In this document: one piece after another, positions 48,001 to 64,000 of the stretch
Position numbering within the stretch: the stretch's first letter is position 1
Layout of the letters: the number at the start of each line of letters is the position of its first letter
NCBI GenBank assembly: GCA_023053545.1
Contig: JAKZAN010000005.1
Span: 12,152,001-12,216,000 of the forward strand
DNA from: Lepidurus packardi
Taxonomy: Eukaryota; Arthropoda; Branchiopoda; Notostraca; Triopsidae
DNA: 64,000 nucleotides
Direction of reading: 5' to 3'
Notes under the pieces: generated by a model
The model's input: the letters and a program-made list of their open reading frames with translations, nothing else
What the model was told of the DNA's origin: nothing
Database searches by the model: none
Program-made: the position numbers and the translations under genes

Positions 48001-50426
48001 ACTTAGATGCTGCAACAGACTCTGCGCGCTGAAACAAACGTGGTCGCAAACCGAGCACGTCAAACGTGACGTCTGATCCTCTGGTTCATGGACCGGGTCT
48101 TTGAGGATTGGCGGTATCGGTAGTGCTGGTCCTGGCAAGCTCTCCAAAGGCGAGAAATTCATGCTTGGAGGTAGACTATTGTTGAAGGGCGAGGCATGGC
48201 TGGGACTTGGGCTCGGTTCTGTCCCTTGACCCACGTCGTAGTAGAATTCGCCAGAAGTTACGGTTTGGCTAGCCGTTCTCTGATTCGCCACCATGGATTG
48301 ACGAACCCGGACCGAAGCTGCGCAGCACTGCATGTGTTTCTTCAAACCCTATAAAAAATAAATAAAAGGAAATTAGACTCGTTGGCCAAAGCGTTGAAGA
48401 GTAGAAAATTCATAAAAATTCATAAAAAAATAATGAAAATTCCTTAAAAATTAACAAAAAAAATCGTAAAAATTAATTCACAAAAAAAATCGACAAAAAA
48501 GAAAGAAGTGTTCTACTGAAAGAGACTCGTTGGCCAAAGCGTTGAAGAGTAGAAAATTCATAAAAATTCATAAAAAAAACAATGAAAATTCTTTAAAAAT
48601 TCAGGAAAATTTCTTAAAAATTAAAAAAAAAAAGTCGTAAAAAGTAATTCACAAAAAAAAATCAGAAAAAAGTAAGAAGTGTTCTACTGAAAGAGACTCG
48701 TTGGCCAAAGCGTTGAAGAGTAGAAAATTCATAAAAATTCATAAAAAAAATAATGAAAATTGCCTTAAAAATTCAGAAAAATTTCTTAAAAATTAAAAAA
48801 AAAGTCGTAAAAAGTAATTCACAAAAAAAAATCAGAAAAAAGTAAGAAGTGTTCTACTGAAAGAGACTCGTTGGCCAAAGCGTTGAAGAGTAGAAAATTC
48901 ATAAAAATTCAGGAAAAATTTATAAAAAAATAATGAAAATACCTTAGAAATTCAGGAAAATTTCTTAAAAATTAACCCCAAAAAATGTAAAATTAATAAT
49001 TTAAAAAGTAATTCACGAAAAAATCAGAAAAAAGTATAAAGTCTTCTACTGAAAGAGGAAGAGAGCGAAACTTACGCCAAGTGACGAACATATACGGGAG
49101 CAGATTCCGCAGCGAAAGCCGGTTTCTTTGGTTTGTTCTATAGCGCACGCATTGTTGAAGTTCCCTGGCATATTGTACGTCACGTTAGACGAATTTGGTC
49201 CATTTCCGTTGACTAGGAAGCTGTTTGTTTGCTGTTGCGACTGTTGTTGATGCTGTTGCTGAGCGTTATGTGGACTCATCCAGTCTAGCTCATGGTTAGG
49301 GAAAATAGGCGGGGCTAGTGAAGGCACTGAGTTGTACGCATAGTACGAAGGCAAGTTACTGGCGAACGGATGATAATTAGCGCGAGCATGAGGAAAAGCA
49401 TGGGGGAAGTTACGGGTACAGATTTTGGCACGGTAATGAGTCGCGTTTGGCCAACTAAATTCAAACTGTAAATTAGGGGAAGGACGATGATAATTAGCCT
49501 GGCTATGGTCTCCCATGTTATAATTTCCGTTTCCAAAGCTGATGTCTGTCTTGAGACTGGAATTGGGGCCTGCCAGGCCCACATTAGGTTCAAATTCGTG
49601 ATGGTGATTCGGGGAAGGGGACGATTCAGTGGATTCGTCGGATATTCCAGTGTCGTTGGAACTCCTGGGGAAGCTATAGTAAGTTGGAGGCGAAGGGGGT
49701 GTGAAAAAGGAAGGATTGGGCGCAAAATTAGGGTCAAACCCTCCCATAGAAGGGTGATCCGTCCCGAAATAGTGCCCGGAATGTCCAGAATTGCTCTGGT
49801 GATTGAAAGCAGGAGCTGAAGGTTGATGACTGCCGTTGTTGCTGGCGTTGTATTGGCCGGAATCGTAGATGGGAGGAGTTTCTTCCCGCGAATCTTTAAA
49901 CCAGTTGAAATCGGGGAGTTTGGACGGCGTGGAAGTGCGGTAATGCTGCTTGCATGGTTCTAGACGACTCGCCTGGCCAGATACTTGGTAGATCTGCAAG
50001 GCAGGCTGGTATATCTGCCAAGGGTTCCATGCTGAATCTTGAGACAGGACAGGATTCACGTTATGGCTGTTCCCAGTGCTATGGTTGGAGTAATCGACGA
50101 TTTGGGATTGATCCTGGTCCTGGTTAGCGTTCCATGATTCGTCTGGAGTGAGAAACTCGGTACGAGAAGTGTCTGACTCCTCAACTGTGTAAATGATATA
50201 ATAAAAACGTTAGTTGATAGGGAACTAAAGGTGAATATGAGAAGTTACGGGAGTAAAAGAGAATTAATTTACTGTTTAGGAGCAAAGGGGAGAGGATGCT
50301 GGTTTGTAATTGCGCAGAATCATCGGCCGGCAGATGTCTTGAAGTCACTTCGGAATTAGGGTGATGTTCATCGGGGTCTGATTGATCTTGATTGGTTCGG
50401 GGAGAAACGGAAGTGAAGTCGTCCAT
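45093..50426 (-). CDS. Multi-C2H2 zinc-finger protein with a helical C-terminal domain
   Basis: Nine exons, complement: 50273-50426, 49076-50184, 47854-48348, 47611-47764, 47233-47342, 46975-47101, 45944-46203, 45759-45891, 45093-45706; 1051 aa, all phases agree. Residues 1 to about 400 are disordered and rich in Ser, Asn, Pro and Gln (QQQHQQQSQQQ). Then come about 12 C2H2 fingers, some split by introns, such as FVCDLCSKSFGSSGSLKKHARVH, FTCPTCRKVFFEENLLNQH and MKCPDCSRSYLRKDGLERH. A few are atypical: one ends HMQCC and one HLRMSASC. After the last finger, about 200 aa hold a Leu-rich helical segment (LYDNVLQLLSLTVGMPGLES, then VYVILGSILERFGVTRDP, LDLYVEGVVKEMQSQKLRL) that I do not recognise. 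It is probably a nuclear DNA-binding regulator; no orthologue is named. Confidence 0.85.
46430..46725. repeat. Minisatellite, about 22-bp unit
   Basis: Units of AAGTTGACTTGAGCTGACTCGT repeat about 12 times with CGAAAGTTGACT variants. It lies in the zinc-finger gene intron between exons 46975-47101 and 45944-46203. The unit shares GACTCGnAAGTnGACT with the 53075-53790 array. Confidence 0.9.
48376..49060. repeat. Tandem array, about 150-170 bp, 4 units
   Basis: GAGACTCGTTGGCCAAAGCG followed by TTGAAGAGTAGAAAATTCAT recurs at about 48376, 48524, 48694 and 48867. The spacer in each is A-rich with AAAAATCAGAAAAAAGTA and GTGTTCTACTGAAA. The array fills almost the whole intron up to the donor of the 49076-50184 exon. 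Confidence 0.88.
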
Positions 50427-51595
50427 CTTTCTACTACTAACATACTACGGACTAGCTAAACGGACTTACAAATTCCTAAGATATAGAAAAGAAAATATCA
50501 TATATCTTTACACTTTAAACATGTATTTTTAGAACAAGAATTGCGTGCACAATTAGAAAAAAAATCAAAATTAGAAAAAATAAAACAGACAAACCATGGC
50601 AAGGCATGGCACGGCAGGAAAATCATTACTTTCGCTTTAATTTACCCCAAATAACTCGATTTTAATATTTAACTAGAAACAGAATAGTTATACCAACAGT
50701 GATGACTTACTTAGCTTGAATTTCACTTCATAATTCGTTCAATTAAATGAACTTCCTTCTCTACGTCTCTCTTCTCCCAGTCTGTTTTGCTTTGCAGCAC
50801 GTGGCTCATCGATTATAGTATCGACATATTTATATCGATTACAGCCAAGCAATATTTAACACTAAACCGATTGGGTCGCTGAACTACGCGGGAAACTTTC
50901 AAATTTTAACAGCATTTCCTGCCAATTTTCCTGTTTATTCTCTAAATATCTGATTTTTCGCGAAGATTTTGGGGGAAAACAATAGCGGAAGTAAGAAAAA
51001 CCTATTAGTGTAAAAGATTGAGTCAAGGTTAGGTTCGAAAAATTCCTTTGACCACGACGGGTGCCAATACGGTACTTTATGATTGTTTTAAGTAACTGTT
51101 TTTTCATTTATTTTTTTTCCCAATGCACTTGTCACTTCATTTGCTCGATCACACGAAAGGCTCACAGAAAAACAAATCAGGAATGATTACCACTGGGCAG
51201 GTAGGTAATGATTGTGGAAAGCAAAAAACTCCCTAGTTTTAACAAAAACATTCTTAACTAAGCAAACCATTAGCAAAACTGACTCTGACCGAATGGCAAA
51301 AGAATGTCTGGGTTAAATCAAACACTTTCTCAGTTAACATAACACTATTACCGCCAAGATTCCCAAAACAGAACCAATTTAAGAGGAAACACCAGAGGAT
51401 GAAAACAAGAAACAATTGTAAAGAACAGGTAACCAAAACAAAAGACCAAGTAACATTTCAGCCCCTCACAATTTTGGCAAAATGCACATGGTCCCTGTTC
51501 AAAAATGGTCCATTATGAGTTTTTCTTATTTTCTTTTTTTTTTTTTTTTTTTAAGCAATTGTTAGCTCATCACGCAACTTGATTTAAGGCGAAAA
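50427..51595. other. Gap between the zinc-finger gene start and the IMPDH stop
   Basis: About 1.17 kb. The zinc-finger gene promoter should lie at the left; ATCGAT-type motifs (CATCGATTAT, TATCGACA, TATCGATT) cluster at about 50808-50840 but none is a perfect DRE. The right part is probably IMPDH 3' untranslated sequence with an 18-nt T run at about 51534-51552. No gene seen. Confidence 0.35.
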
Positions 51596-56530
<4,935 letters not shown>

Positions 56531-57677
56531 TTTATAATATCAACGTAATGCTATTAGAACAAATAAACGCTAAAATATTTTCGAGAAAAAGATAAACACA
56601 AATGGGCTAAGATAAACTTGGGGAAGCCCAGTGTACCACGTTGTAGACACTTGAATAATACACTGCATCTCGTTTGTGGTTTCCACGCCAACTCGGTCTA
56701 CAATTTGGGTTCAGATGAAGATAACCAGAGGGCCTTTTGTTCCTAGCCTTGGGGGCGTTACCATGCCGAGTTTGCGCAGTAAGAATGCCCTGAGGGCATG
56801 CAATAATTAGTTCAATTTTCCCTTAAAAGGCTCTATAAAACTTTGAAGAAATGGGCATCTATTTTTAGAAAATTTAAATTAATTCATTATATAAAGTGAT
56901 ATGATATAAGAGTAAGAAATTTAAACTATGAAAAGAAAGCATTTTATTTCCGCTTTCTAACTAGTTTATTAAGATTCTAAAGGGCCTCATCATGTCATCC
57001 TATATCTCACAACCTGGGGCCTAGCTAATCTGGATTCCGGCGTTTGCGCAATAGCAAACGCTTTGAGGCAATGGCGTAATTCGCAAAATTATGGTTATTG
57101 GATTAGAAATAGGTGAAACAAATTCAATTATACACTTCAGGGACACATTATTCGGCAAAAGAGCCTTGAAGGCTTGTCGGGATTGTTCAGAAATTATGCA
57201 ATAGCGTTTTGTCCTAAGGCGACTATGACTACAGGACGCAATACGATGACTGCACACGCGATGCTGAGTTTGCGGTTTGAAATTACATAATTTTTTTATA
57301 AGCCAAGTTATTGTCAGGTTAATGGATTCGCTGTCCTTCCGGTAAATTTTCCGTGAGATACCGGTGACCTTTCCGTGTCTTTATACATTAGTAATAGGGT
57401 TTCAAGCGACGATTTCGTTATCCGTTAAGCGGACGGCGAATGAGCACGGATAGAATAGAAGAAGCTGGATGAGTTGTCTTGGTAACTGAGAGTAAACGAA
57501 TAGGACTGAGTCAATATTAGGGAGCAGACTAACAAGCATAAGAGACTGGTGAATAACAGGAAACAGAAAACGGGTTGTTTTTATCCTCATCCTTTGTATT
57601 TACAATCCCACTAAGCTTGCAAAGCGAACAAATCTGGTCTAATGTCTTTCATAAGGAACAAAGCTAATGAGAACTTT
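56531..57677. other. Gap between the IMPDH start and the NDUFB7 stop
   Basis: About 1.15 kb without a supported gene. A GCGTTTGC..GCAAACGC inverted repeat (57040-57061) can form an 8-bp hairpin, and TGAGGGCATGCAATAATT is at about 56790. A 78-codon minus frame at 57021-57257 has no protein-like character. Confidence 0.35.
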
Positions 57678-58252
57678 TTATTCCGGTAATTCTTCTTTGC
57701 GAGAACGAGATGCCTTCTTGGCTTGGCGCTCTAGCAAACGACGTTCTCGTTCGTATTCTTTCATTCTAATAACGTAACTAAAGAAGGGAAAGTTAAATTA
57801 AGACGAATTTTCGAGGATTTCCTTATTTTGCTTGTGAAAATCTTACTCTTCATATTCACAGTGAAGATACACATGCTTGTCGTGATGGCATTTGTACACC
57901 AAAGGAAAGTTATCTGCTCTACAGGTTTGGTAGTCTAACAAGAGGTGAGCACAGTAGTCCCGGTATTGCAAGGGAATTTTGGCAGATTTCAAGTCTTCTT
58001 CCTTGGCGATCATAACTAAAAAGAATCCATGTTCTTAATAAACACGAAGACTAGCTATTACAATTACAAGTAGTTTATTTTAGAGCTCGTTAATACAGTC
58101 TGAAGGAATGCGGTTGAGTGAAACCAAATGAACAAGATTCAGATGTATATTTTACCTCGCTGTTTACGTTCGGACGCAAATCCTAGACTAGGATCAAAGG
58201 TAGGATCTTCTTTCACATTTGGAGTGAGAGTTTTAGCTAATGCAGTTCCCAT
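57678..58252 (-). CDS. NDUFB7: NADH dehydrogenase 1 beta subcomplex subunit 7 (B18)
   Basis: Three exons, complement: 58156-58252, 57847-58015, 57678-57777; 121 aa (human 137), all phases agree. It carries the twin CX9C signature: CAHLLLDYQTC and CHHDKHVYLHC, whose cysteines form the disulfide-bonded CHCH hairpin. YVIRMKEYERERRLL after it is the conserved NDUFB7 tail helix. A Met-Gly start fits N-myristoylation known for the family. Role: an accessory subunit of mitochondrial complex I facing the intermembrane space, needed for assembly. Confidence 0.92.
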
Positions 58253-59474
58253 TTTCTTCGCTAAATCGCAGAAACAAATCTACACTTTTCCACCCAAATC
58301 ATACAGAAAAGGCAGGAAGTAAACAAAAAGCTTGGAGCCGAAAACCGCGACAATGCTATAAAACTGAACCGAACCGAACCAGCGAGTCGCACAGCCCGCC
58401 AAATTCAAACTTGTATAGCCGTTATCTGTTGTTCCGCGTTGTGCAAGCCTGTGTAGCGCTAATTTTGTCTCCCAAGGGATTGAAAATAACATAATGCATT
58501 GAAGCGGGTTTAATGATTTTATGAAAAGATTGAAGGTACCACTAATCCTGTTAATACGACACAACTGCGCAGAGTTGAGCGACATGCTATATATAATATC
58601 TGCCATCAGGGCTTACAGCAATACTTTCACACCATAGATGGTCGTCTTCAAGGCAGTTATGCATATGTGATGAGCAAAAATAAGACTTTCTCTTGAGCAC
58701 AGCACCCCACATACAGAGCCAATTACTTTCACAAACGCCTTTAACAGACACTATTCATCTAACATTCATCGTAACACGTAGCCAGCATCAAATACATTGT
58801 TTGCAAAAGCGCAGTGCATACATGCAGAGTTGTCGGTTCATTTCTCTGTAAAGTTCTGCAAACAATAAAAATCTTAGTGCAAACTTTACGGACGGTTTAA
58901 AGAAATGTGCAGTCGAGTTTTGTTTGGGTTTAGCATACACGGTGTCTTGTAATGTAGAGCTAAGGCAACTATGTATGTATATAACACATTTTCACTCTTC
59001 TTCCCCTCTGCAAAATATGGTCATTCACTCCTAGCCATTCAAACAAATTAAACCAAACCTTTTAGTCCGTTTTGGTACAAAGGGGGCTGAAAATAATTGG
59101 AACCTTTTCCATACAAAATGTTTTGCATGAAAAATAAAGTCCATTGCAGCAGCAATGGATGCTAGATTTGCTAAACGCTCATCACTATAGTTTCGGGTTT
59201 GTATATACATCAACAAAACACAAGACGCAAAAAGGGACGCGATGTGGGATTCTGTAAAGGAGGAGAGACGAAAAACTGTTTGAAACAAAACAAGAGAAAT
59301 GTCAAAAGTTGGTTTGTTTTTCTTAGTTAGAAGGAACAACAAAAAGGTCGGACAGAGTATCCCAATAGATGATGAGGTTTAAACAAGGGCCAACAAACAA
59401 AGAAAAGAAACACCCTACTAGGGTGACATAAAGAGAGTTGACCCAAGTTTTGCTGTGTACAGGTATAGAGGCTC
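58253..59474. other. NDUFB7 5' flank and probable ELOVL 3' untranslated region
   Basis: About 1.2 kb. The left part should hold the NDUFB7 promoter; the right part lies downstream of the ELOVL stop. No open frame with protein character and no other feature was found. Confidence 0.35.
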
Positions 59475-62400
59475 TTAATCATCCTTAGAATGGATGGATC
59501 CATTGGCGTGCCCGTTGGTGTGGCCATTGGAGTAACCATTCTCGTGTGTTTTGCCGTTACTGTAGCCGTTCGCGTGTCCGTTGGTATGGCCATTGGTGTA
59601 CCCATTGGTGTATCCGTTCGTGTACCCGTTGGTATGTCCATTGGCATGGCCGTTGGTGTATCCATTCGTAACACCATTCGTAACACCATTCGTAACACCA
59701 TTAGTAACGCCATTGGTGTACCCGTTCGCTTTTCCATTGGCCAACGCTGCTTTAGCATCCTACAAACGAAAATAAACATTTAGCCCAAAAGTTTTAAATT
59801 TTTTTTTCTAAAGTTTCTTCAAAAGTTATTCTTTGTTCTATAAGCTCCAATCCTAGAGTAACGCAAGAATAAGGTTGGGCTTCAAACTCATGCATATCTA
59901 TCTTCAAAAGCCAACCGAGCTATTACTAAAACTATGACTTGGAAGCCCCGCCCCCAGGCAGCCAACCGAGCTATTACTAAAACTATGACTTGGAAGCCCC
60001 ACCCCCTTGCCTGAGGCTTTATCCATAAGGAATCCTATAATAACTCGGTGATATTGCCGCTAGAAAGAGGGAATTTGAAGCTAAACGTATTGTTTTGATG
60101 CACTCTTAAGTAACTCATTAGCTATAGTAACTCATTAGCTATAGTAACTCTAGAGTAACACAAGAATAAGGTTGGGCTTCAAACTCATGCATCTCAATCT
60201 TGAAAAGCCAACCGAGCTATTACTAAAACTATGACTTGGAAGCCCCGCCCCAGGCAGCCAACCGAGCTATTACTAAAACTATGACTTGGAAGCCCCACCC
60301 CCTTGCCTGAGGCTTTATCCATAAGGAATCCTATAATAACTCGGTGATATTGCAGATAGATAGAAAGAGGGAATTTGAAGCTAAACGTATTGTTTTGATG
60401 CACTCTGAAGTCTGTAACTAACTGTCTGAAGTAAGTAAGTAACTCTTTAGCTATAGTAAGTAAAACTAAGTAATTTAAAAGAATAGGGAACATGGAGGAA
60501 AACTTACTCTTTGTTGTTTCCGCTTGGCAAAATAGGATTTTCGGTAGAAATCGGAAAAGAGAGCAAAGAAGAGTACGCCGTGGCACCCAATCCACCAGAC
60601 AAAGGCCTTGGGGTAGTTGCATTCGATAAAGAGCAGTTGGAACGCGTGCAGGACAATGAGGACAAATTGCACCATTTGGAATGTGGTCAAATGCTTCTTC
60701 CACCAGATGTACTTCTGGTACTGGGGACCCATGGCAGCGACCATATAATAGAAGTACATGACAATGTGCACAAACGTGTTGAGCAGACCGAAGAACGTGC
60801 TGTGTCCACCTAAAGCGAAAAATTCCCAGATAATTAAGAAACTAGCATGTCAAAAATTCCTCAAAAATGTCAATTTCCTTTTAGCTTGACTTGGTCGTAC
60901 CTGGGGTGAAACGTACTCCGAACCAGACACTCATAGGCATAATACCGTGATGGACAACGTGGAGCAATGAGATGTGTTGATCTTTCTTGCGCAGGACGAA
61001 GAAAAACTGCAAAAAAAAAACAAATCATGAACAAAATTAGAAAAATTTCAACGGAATTTAGATTTTAATTTAATTTTAAGATCTAGAAGCTTGGGACGCT
61101 TACTGTGTCGAAGAACTCCGTGAACTTGGAGAAGTAATACCACCAGCAAGCGTAGACCATCTAGTATACAAACTTTTAATGTCAAGCTTAGAAAGATTTG
61201 GGGTAGGAAAAGGTTTTGATGTGTTTTGTGATAGAAAAGTGATGATGTGATGATGAAAAGATTGTTGTTGAAAGGTAAAGAACCATAAAAGAGGAGTCCG
61301 ATCACGTCAGAGGCCACAAGCAGAGGTAAGGTCTGTTTTAACGGAAAAAATCAAGATTTTTTTAAAAAAAAAAAATATGTTTTAAAGGAACGGTCAACGT
61401 AAGTTGTGCAGCTTTAGAAAAAAAAATAATATATTTTTATACATACTCACACAGAAAGGGTGAAAGGAAAAGAATTTAAACACGAAAGATTCTGGGTTGT
61501 GAAATATGTGGTTTTTTAAACTCACCCGTACTGCCAATGGACTATTAGAATAATCAACGGGTTGACAGCGGTAATTATAGCCGTTTAACCACCCTGACAG
61601 GGCCAACTGTGGAAAAGAACCGAAAATACCCACACTACAAAAACCTCTTGCCAAGAAGCTTCAGTCACACACCTCTAAAACCGCTAAAAAGATCTTAAAA
61701 CGAACTTTATAGAGTATAAGTTTACATTCTTGTTTTACAAAAACCGTTGGGTTTTAGTCTTCTAACGCTTCTAGATTGATTTTAGATATATTTATATTAG
61801 TTCAGGGTGAAGGGTTAGGATTTGGATGATTTGAACTGGGGAATTAGCTCTTGCAGAGAGAAGAACTTCTCATCCAAGCGTTTAACTCCACTTTCGTGCG
61901 ATCTAACTGCATGCAAGCTGCAAAAACCGTTGCGTCAAAGCAGGAAGCGCGGGAAACATTTGAATTTGAAAAAGCGTGGGAAATTTAGAAGGGGAAAAGA
62001 GCGTAAGATGTGAAAATAGGTTTTGAAGGGTAGAAATTTGTTTCAGTTTGTTTGTCTATCCCTTTCACCCAAGACGTTTTATGAATCTTATGATTGTGTG
62101 CGTGTGTCGATGGCAGTATGGATGTGTTTCGAGAGCCCTGACCAGAAAGGAAAACCGATTTCCGAAAACTCACCCTGACTGCCATGTCGTCAAGTGAATA
62201 ATCGACAGGCTGACATACAAAGCTATATCCGTGGAACCATCCACCTCTACCATACTAGAACGATAAAAACATTTGCTTTTGCTCAGAAATTTTTTGGTTA
62301 AAAAAAAAAACAAAACAATAGGAAGCCAAACGATCTGTAACAAAACCAACGAAAAATAGTAATAAAGGTGTACGCAAACGAACGACCATCAGGTAACAAA

Positions 62401-62946
62401 ACTACATGGGTTTGAGACATGGGTATATGAAATGTCAGAAATAAGTAAATGTACGATAGGTACGTGTCTTGATCCTTGATCAACATGCCGAAAACTACGG
62501 AGCGAATCATAAATCTAAATTCAGGGAAAAGAAGTGGAAATCTGCCCAACCGTCAGTCAAAATAGGTTAAAGAAGGTGAAGAAAACCGACGCCAGTAGTC
62601 CAAACCTATTTTTTTATTAGTGTCGCCCTACTTCGTTAAAAAATAATAATAAAAAAATAAAAAAAAAAAAATCCGTCCCAAAAAAGCAGCTGTCAACCGC
62701 GTTGGCCAAGTTTTGTTCCTGTTAAGGTTCTTTTTCTGCACGTGATCAGAAGACTGATGTTCAATTGAACAATGAAAAAGAAGTAAGATTTGTGGGCTCT
62801 TCTTGAAAAGTGAAGGCAAATAAGGCGCGATGTAGACTTTTGAACTTAGTTGTCCCCTCACTCACCCTGATGGCAATCGGATCATCGGAATAGTCAACAG
62901 GTTCGCACATATAATTGTACTGGAAGAGCCATCCACCCATCAGGCA
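59475..62946 (-). CDS. Very-long-chain fatty-acid elongase (ELOVL), 3' part
   Basis: Exons on the minus strand: one of three alternative 81-nt exons (62866-62946, 62174-62254 or 61526-61606), then 61104-61160, 60901-61006, 60508-60809, 59475-59759; upstream exons lie beyond the window. Phases agree. Landmarks: PVDYS in each alternative exon, [37 protein letters not shown] with the catalytic HxxHH box, then [35 protein letters not shown] and several membrane segments. Family knowledge: ER membrane 3-ketoacyl-CoA synthase, condensing malonyl-CoA with acyl-CoA, step one of elongation; TECR (29333) acts last. The C-terminal exon is unusual: about 75 residues of NG-spaced repeats ([21 protein letters not shown]) ending SIHSKDD, with no KKxx retrieval signal. 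The exact ELOVL subtype is not resolved; ELOVL4/7-like insect elongases fit best. Confidence 0.9.
59860..60415. repeat. Tandem duplication of about 295 bp with an inner repeat
   Basis: A block from AAGAATAAGG through AGCCAACCGAGCTATTACTA and AACTATGACTTGGAAGCCCC to TTGTTTTGATGCACTCT occurs at about 59862-60108 and 60160-60405. Inside each copy the AGCCAACCGAGC..AAGCCCC segment is itself repeated. It lies in the last ELOVL intron. Confidence 0.88.
61526..61606 (-). other. ELOVL alternative exon 3 of 3
   Basis: 81 nt, phase 0 to 0, flanked by a good acceptor (CTTTTCCACAG) and donor (GTGAGT). It encodes [20 protein letters not shown] then NSPLAVR. It shares 14 of 27 residues with 62174-62254 and 15 of 27 with 62866-62946. 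Confidence 0.88.
62174..62254 (-). other. ELOVL alternative exon 2 of 3
   Basis: 81 nt, phase 0 to 0, acceptor TATCGTTCTAG, donor GTGAGT. It encodes [20 protein letters not shown] then LDDMAVR. The conserved frame is GW, Y, C, PVDYS, A, R at the same positions as the other two versions. Confidence 0.88.
62866..62946 (-). other. ELOVL alternative exon 1 of 3
   Basis: 81 nt, phase 0 to 0, acceptor AACTTTACAG, donor GTGAGT. It encodes [20 protein letters not shown] then DDPIAIR. It lies furthest upstream in transcription order among the three seen; more versions could exist beyond the right edge. Confidence 0.88.
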
Positions 62947-64000
62947 CTGTAAAGTTTCTTTTTTTAAAAACAGGGTGTTTGTCGTTATGTGTAAAAATCA
63001 ATCAATCAGGAAACGACGCCACGTGAAAGGATGGACAAGGACTTACGAAACAAACAAACAAACATCACACACACAGAAAAATGCAGGTTAATGACGCAAC
63101 AAACCATTCGCTTCGGGGCTGTAGTAACCATTAATGTGTTAGCGAAAAATTAGAAGCTGCTAAGTAATTCATCCGGTAAGAAATGGCGGTTTTTGTGTTG
63201 TCATAAAAAATACCCACGGCTAATAGGTACAGGTCAGAAGAATGTGTAGGTAAAAGAACGGGGTAAAAAGATCATTAACTACGATCAAACCAATTAGTTT
63301 TCCTCTAGAACCCCTCCAAACCATCAGATTAGCGAGCGTAAACGCAATTACCAACGAAGTAAAATTAAATTTAATGCTAAAGCCTCGTAAAACACCATTC
63401 AAAGCATCATATCCTAGCTTCGAGCGCTTAATTATCGATAACTGCCCAAATATCGATATCAAGTTGAAATATCGATACCAAGTTGAAATATCGATACCGT
63501 CAAAAACCGAAAGTTTAGCCAAAAATGAAAACAATAGAATTTAAATCTAAATCATATGAAATGAAATCAATTGTTGCTGGAAAATTATTTAAAAAGTTAA
63601 GTTACGAAACGTTTGCTAGATTATTTTTAAATTAAACTGAGTTTTCCTGCGAAACTTGTTGAAACTACTAACGTAAACTCGCGATTGGAAGTCAGAGTTT
63701 TTCCTTGAAGGTTAAAAACTGACCAGCTGAAGGTAAAGAGACTTGAAAAACGTGCAGTACAAGTTCAAGGTAAAAACGCGGTACATAACGACCGTTTGCA
63801 GAGCCTTGGAGCCAAATGCAGAGCGTCAATTTACCTTCCGCTACGCCAGACAGCAATACTTTTGGTTGACTAATTGAACCTCTACACAAAAGAACTGTAC
63901 ATGACTTTAAAAAACACCCAAAAACAACGAATCGCTCAGAGCGTTCTAGGCTAAGTAACTCCCGGCACGTTCAAAAGATAAACTAGAAGCTCAATGGTTA
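62947..64000. other. ELOVL intron running off the right edge
   Basis: About 1 kb of presumed intron upstream of the alternative exons. Apart from the TATCGATA cluster at 63433-63496 nothing was found; in particular no further PVDYS-type exon is visible on the minus strand. Confidence 0.4.
63433..63496. promoter_or_regulatory. Cluster of four TATCGATA (DRE) sites
   Basis: Perfect octamers at 63433-63440, 63451-63458, 63470-63477 and 63489-63496, the last two embedded in repeated AAGTTGAAATATCGATACC. Four in 64 bp is far above chance. It sits in an ELOVL intron, about 490 bp upstream of the first alternative exon, so it may be an internal promoter or enhancer. Confidence 0.45.

Follow-up and report, generated by a model that had tools for sequence, protein, structure and literature searches.

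An elongase gene of Lepidurus packardi, lying at the end of a 64,000-nucleotide stretch of genomic DNA (the window; G000:C4:12152001-12216000, from a genome of 108.6 Mb in 344 contigs), appears to contain a mutually exclusive exon cluster through which an ELOVL1/7-type elongase would have its luminal lid exchanged. We assign this reading a probability of about 0.8, leaving aside any effect of the exchange on the substrate. In the proposed mechanism, an ancestral 81-nt exon encoding Loop 2 would have been triplicated in tandem, and the spliceosome would most likely place one of the three copies (A, B, or C) in each mRNA. The outcome would be three enzymes with a common catalytic core and differing luminal lids, each lid retaining the cysteine predicted to bond with Loop 6 and to close the tunnel at the ER end, with the charge and the residues adjacent to the cysteine differing between them. 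Such a lid could tune substrate length, partner choice, or stability.

Organization of the elongase gene

The gene is encoded on the minus strand, and the exons placed in it are listed below with their window positions.

64192-64002, minus strand: upstream shared exon U, just beyond the window end; 13 of 18 pyrimidines at -20 to -3
62866..62946, minus strand: alternative exon A, 81 nt, 27 residues, open; AG before, GTGAGTGA after; homologous to B and C
62174..62254, minus strand: alternative exon B, 81 nt, 27 residues, open; AG before, GTGAGTTT after
61526..61606, minus strand: alternative exon C, 81 nt, 27 residues, open; AG before, GTGAGTTT after
61104..61160, minus strand: downstream shared exon D1, 57 nt, 19 residues, phase 0; in frame with A, B, or C
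60901..61006, minus strand: shared exon D2 with the histidine box HVVHH (HxxHH); GCAG before the first bases TTTTTC, last bases CACCCCAG before GTACGACC
60508..60809, minus strand: shared exon D3 with the Loop 6 partner cysteine (FIECNYP); CTTTAG before the first bases GTGGAC, last bases CAAAGA before GTAAGTTT
59475..59759, minus strand: last coding exon D4, an Asn-Gly-repeat tail and then the stop

Exons A, B, and C lie between the single upstream exon U and the single downstream exon D1, and the introns U-A, A-B, B-C, and C-D1 measure 1055, 611, 567, and 365 nt, respectively. The chains U-X-D1-D2-D3-D4, where X is A, B, or C, each give a 340-residue open frame to the stop; these chains begin at U, with the preceding coding exon unplaced and the base completing the first codon set to G. 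The preliminary description of this DNA had proposed three 81-nt exons of equal length and phase, and its coordinates were recovered as given, with all three exons in phase 0 and open. It had also called the splice sites strong, a description that fits all three donors (each GTGAGT) and the acceptor of C, with 15 of 18 pyrimidines at positions -20 to -3, fits the acceptor of B less well (12/18), and does not fit that of A, where the tract is weak (6/18). All three acceptors end in AG, and the acceptor of the constitutive exon D1 has 9 of 18 pyrimidines.

Several repeats are present in and near the gene. In the D3-D4 intron (window 59853-60405) a stretch of ~250 bases is seen by eye to occur twice, each copy consisting of approximately two tandem units of 50-51 bp (GGGGCTTCCAAGTCATAGTTTTAGTAATAGCTCGGTTGGCT...), and in the U-A intron, at 63448-63498, a 19-bp unit that includes ATCGAT (AAATATCGATACCAAGTTG) is repeated 2.7 times in tandem. 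Upstream of the gene there is a long tandem array with a 200-bp unit repeated 8.6 times (L010:8253-10000, C4:12224253-12226000), which also fits units of 100 and 300 bp, as well as an AT-rich array with an 88-bp unit repeated 9.7 times (L010:3998-4853). An open frame of 100 codons at window 61048-61350 spans about half of the C-D1 intron and continues beyond it, and a patch of the same intron at ~61340-61280 looks richer in G+C than the remainder by eye; the frame and the patch may reflect chance or an unrecognized element. Elsewhere in the genome, genes for cuticle proteins of the Chitin_bind_4 family, a marker of arthropods, form large clusters at G000:C3:0.42-2.8 Mb: the profile search gave 266 candidates, many of them arrayed on contig C3, and all 150 that were scored matched (150/150).

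Identity of the enzyme and position of the putatively exchanged segment

The preliminary assignment of the gene to the ELOVL family is borne out by both profile and structure searches. Isoforms A, B, and C score 231.3, 224.0, and 230.6 bits against the Pfam ELO profile (PF01151), for which the cut-off is 27; with the exon skipped the score is 203.6 bits, and inclusion of any one exon raises it to 224-231. With isoform C as the query, human ELOVL7 was the only relative in the PDB at E <= 0.001, with an E value of 7e-83. A query with exon D3 found no relative in the viral or prokaryote contig collections, as expected there.

The exon of isoform C aligns without gaps to ELOVL7 chain positions 86-112, with its cysteine at position 99 (counted by hand). 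This cysteine is kept in A, B, and C, and the cysteine of the D3 motif FIECNYP aligns to ELOVL7 position 231 (likewise counted by hand). PMC10449689 describes a cysteine pair in ELOVL5 that joins Loop 2, between TM2 and TM3, to Loop 6, between TM6 and TM7, on the ER-lumen side. Through this disulphide the tunnel for the substrate is closed at the ER end, and the same paper gives the two cysteines as highly conserved among eukaryotic elongases. From the alignment to ELOVL7, and from the conserved Loop 2 cysteine with its partner in the shared exon D3, the alternative exon is predicted to encode Loop 2, which would form the luminal lid in this ELOVL1/7-type elongase. The pair is deduced from the presence of both cysteines, and the bond between them is predicted. 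The earlier suggestion of a luminal segment thus agrees with the alignment and with the place of the disulphide cysteine in Loop 2 (PMC10449689). The three versions differ in net charge, which is -3 in A, -1 in B, and +1 in C, and in the residue that precedes the conserved cysteine (Met in A, Val in B, and Arg in C).

Homology and selection of the alternative exons

The three peptides have 11 invariant columns out of 27 (GW...Y...C.PVDYS....A.R), and pairwise they share 13 (A-B), 15 (A-C), and 14 (B-C) residues. At the nucleotide level 47, 44, and 45 of the 81 positions are identical in the same pairs. When 81-mers drawn from the four introns of the gene itself were compared in the same way without gaps (7,551 comparisons), the background mean was 20.9 (sd 3.9, maximum 35). 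Identity is unevenly distributed over the codon, with 18/18/11 of 27 identical at positions 1/2/3 for A-B, 14/20/10 for A-C, and 18/17/10 for B-C. The dN between exons is 0.41-0.46 by NG86, and dS is not computable (NG86 returned -1). We read these values as saturation of the synonymous sites together with conservation of the protein, indicating that the exon set is old and under purifying selection.

Neutral divergence was simulated in 3,000 runs per setting, with three copies descending from one ancestor (exon C) and no indels. At 20, 25, or 30 substitutions per copy, none of the 3,000 runs kept three open frames together with at least 11 invariant residues; the setting of 25 matches the observed divergence, and at this setting the frames of all three copies remained open in 4.5% of the runs. 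The settings of 10 and 15 substitutions fall below the observed divergence, and there 14% and 1.3% of the runs kept three open frames with at least 11 invariant residues. The positional identities and the simulations together point to selection on all three exons. This is in line with the preliminary description, which had considered the exons old and selected with about half of their residues in common: 13-15 of 27 are shared, and neutral simulation at the observed divergence never reproduced the pattern.

These results bear on the possibility that only one exon is used, most likely C, which has the best acceptor and is nearest to ELOVL7, and that the others are relic copies. Such an origin would account for the poor acceptor of A (6 of 18 pyrimidines, against 12 in B and 15 in C), but it is very improbable, since A and B are open with GT and AG intact and retain all 11 shared residues while agreeing with the other copies at only 10-11 of 27 third positions, and neutral copies at matching divergence did not do so in any of 3,000 runs. 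The Pfam ELO score of isoform A, moreover, is on par with that of C (231.3 versus 230.6).

There is no fourth copy of the exon among the best 60 matches of a tblastn search with the three peptides over 34 kb (window 50001-64000 and 20 kb past its end); the top match beyond the exons and their cross-matches has an E value of 0.55.

The segment in paralogous elongase genes

ELO matches were found at five loci of the genome, with at least 15 matches, and a protein query gave at least 17 matches, in four of the five. The number of segment copies in three paralogues (C6, C4b, and C2) was counted within 9-9.5 kb per locus. Gene C6 has one exon of 27 codons (81 nt) at L014:3742-3822 and gene C4b one of the same size at L015:5468-5548, each preceded by AG and followed by GT. 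In gene C2 the segment also occurs once, with an intron at the equivalent place before it, and is fused to the downstream coding sequence. A match at L014:3581-3622 resembles a cassette, but it falls within the upstream coding exon, is read in a different frame, and was taken as chance. For the fifth locus, gene C5, even the best tblastn match to the segment was unconvincing (E 0.054). The single 81-nt exon in C6 and C4b and the single segment in C2 suggest that the 81-nt exon is an old slot of the family, which looks to have been triplicated only in the present gene among the genes compared.

The C6 exon shares 11, 9, and 13 of 27 residues with exons A, B, and C, respectively; for the C4b exon the counts are 9, 9, and 11, and for human ELOVL7, to which C is closest, they are 12, 13, and 15. 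The three resemble one another more than they resemble the exons of C6 and C4b; the one exception is C, whose count with C6 equals the lowest count within the cluster. The distances among A, B, and C are comparable with the distance of each to the human protein, which again indicates considerable age. When the core residues are compared with gene C2, A shares 11 of 15 and B and C 9 of 15 each. The triplication may therefore predate the duplication that gave C2, the difference being two residues, which is thin evidence. An Asn-Gly repeat tail ends both the present gene (59475-59759) and the C2 paralogue (L013:4059-4796), and the fly homologue presumably ends in a similar Asn-Gly tail.

Probable inclusion of the exons in mRNA

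The exons are in the same phase, and they are also adjacent, homologous, of like length, and flanked by compatible splice sites, the last four being features named for mutually exclusive exon clusters in PMC3923563. On this anatomy, A, B, and C are very probably used alternatively, one at a time. The reading frame cannot impose this exclusivity, as had been pointed out in the preliminary description: the combinations AB, AC, BC, and ABC, as well as full skipping, all stay open and in frame. The Pfam ELO scores of BC (224.0) and ABC (225.2) are no lower than that of isoform B (224.0 bits), so the profile offers no argument against serial inclusion either.

Both observations would suit optional cassettes that could be included in series, yielding elongases with a longer Loop 2. 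This arrangement nevertheless has only a slight chance of being correct, because each exon is homologous over its whole length to the same single segment and brings a disulphide cysteine of its own, the segment is single in human ELOVL7 and in three paralogues of this genome, and extra copies would put two or three lids and additional cysteines into one loop. A loop of fixed length between two helices, containing one cysteine, would be expected to tolerate 54 or 81 residues poorly, and for this reason we favor inclusion of a single exon.

How one exon would be chosen was considered from the intron sequences. None of the introns is very short (365-1055 nt), making steric exclusion unlikely. Whole-intron duplex folding produced duplexes as long as the introns, with all six intron pairs at or below the mean of 40 shuffles, and was uninformative. 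A docking candidate in the C-D1 intron (61321-61298) gave energies of -20.2, -26.9, and -19.8 when paired to the three introns and of -24.2, -16.2, and -20.8 when paired to their antisense strands, and none of 28 dinucleotide shuffles of whole introns was as strong. The C-D1 intron is patchy in composition, however, and better-matched controls were as strong in 35 of 300 cases when the segment was shuffled, in 77 of 300 with random window stretches serving as partners, and in 12 of 42 with such stretches serving as docks; against these controls the candidate does not stand out. In the mirror scan, a dock in the first intron was matched by 6 of 20 shuffles. A docking/selector RNA structure is not supported beyond these controls. 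With the frame, short-intron, and RNA-structure routes lacking support, and with acceptors graded C > B > A, exclusivity would most likely come from regulator proteins that act on these unequal acceptors.

Possible roles of the luminal lid

Elongase specificity is commonly ascribed to gene duplication. It has also been ascribed to helices TM6 and TM7 together with Loop 6, according to the part of PMC10449689 available. Through splicing, the present gene could yield three enzyme versions, and counts of elongase genes would then underestimate the number of elongases that an arthropod can make. With Loop 2 long kept in three versions and the rest of the enzyme unchanged, the gene would amount to a natural swap experiment on the role of the luminal lid.

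The difference between the lids could affect substrate or chain length, a suggestion we make tentatively and at somewhat less than even odds. Alternatively, the exons may be mutually exclusive with a difference that is regulatory or structural, acting on stability, dimer partner, or ER quality control and not on substrate choice, which is a realistic option although short of probable. Loop 2 is superimposable in four human elongases and Loop 6 is variable, in a comparison of one structure with three models built on it (PMC10449689), which fits a regulatory difference and makes Loop 2 less likely to be the part that usually sets specificity. In the same direction, the fly CG31522 and CG31523 proteins are reported to interact, as stated in the accessible part of PMC3867666. 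On the other hand, three differing sequences preserved over a long time would point to distinct functions, and the loop would help to close the end of the tunnel. An extended form of the proposal, in which splicing would encode a dial for lipid chain length, with three luminal lids of deep arthropod age used by tissue, sex, or stage for membrane or cuticular lipids, is speculative and rather unlikely.

Comparison with known systems

The Drosophila CG31522/CG31523 group (mosquito AAEL008004) has a similar core sequence and an Asn-Gly-rich tail, and its members may be orthologues of the present gene. Fly CG31522 has an A-like segment starting CLMGGW, and insect annotations give several isoforms of this gene; if both points hold, the cluster may be conserved across many species and present in existing annotation. 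Non-insect orthologues were confined to Elo68 and CG31522 among the 10 clusters of PUFA elongases in insects (PMC5039406). In the accessible portion of PMC11677483, the AAEL008004 elongase is listed for Apis cerana as differentially spliced in the cold, with the event type unstated there. In the available text of PMC7351493, the methods include mutually exclusive exons as a class of event, and the elongase AGAP004373 is one of five differentially spliced pathway genes; most isoforms of those five genes differ solely in untranslated regions, and the exceptions named in that text do not include the elongase. CG31522 appears once in the part of PMC4938635 available, as a doublesex target. By term look-up, the main texts of PMC3303723, PMC3228551, and PMC3923563 mention neither CG31522 nor elongase nor fatty acid, and PMC3867666, which deals with CG31522, does not contain the words exon, splicing, or isoform. 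Among the literature matches listed, none presented an elongase whose exons are mutually exclusive, with supplements and most subscription papers outside the scope of the search. The elongase exon cluster is thus apparently undescribed, and genome databases may already annotate such exons.

The closest solved protein is human ELOVL7 (PDB 6Y7F), to which 239 of 246 queried residues align (E 7e-83). In contrast to the present gene, the solved protein has the segment once, sharing 12-15 of 27 residues with each exon. The arrangement of the exons resembles the Dscam and Mhc exon clusters of arthropods, in which tandem homologous exons of like length encode one protein segment and have matching splice sites. 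It differs from these in that the product is a lipid enzyme of the ER, the exons number three, a docking/selector structure is unsupported, and the cluster is known from genomic sequence alone. Mutually exclusive exon clusters are a known kind of arrangement, and the interest of the present one lies in the luminal lid of an elongase as the segment that would be swapped.
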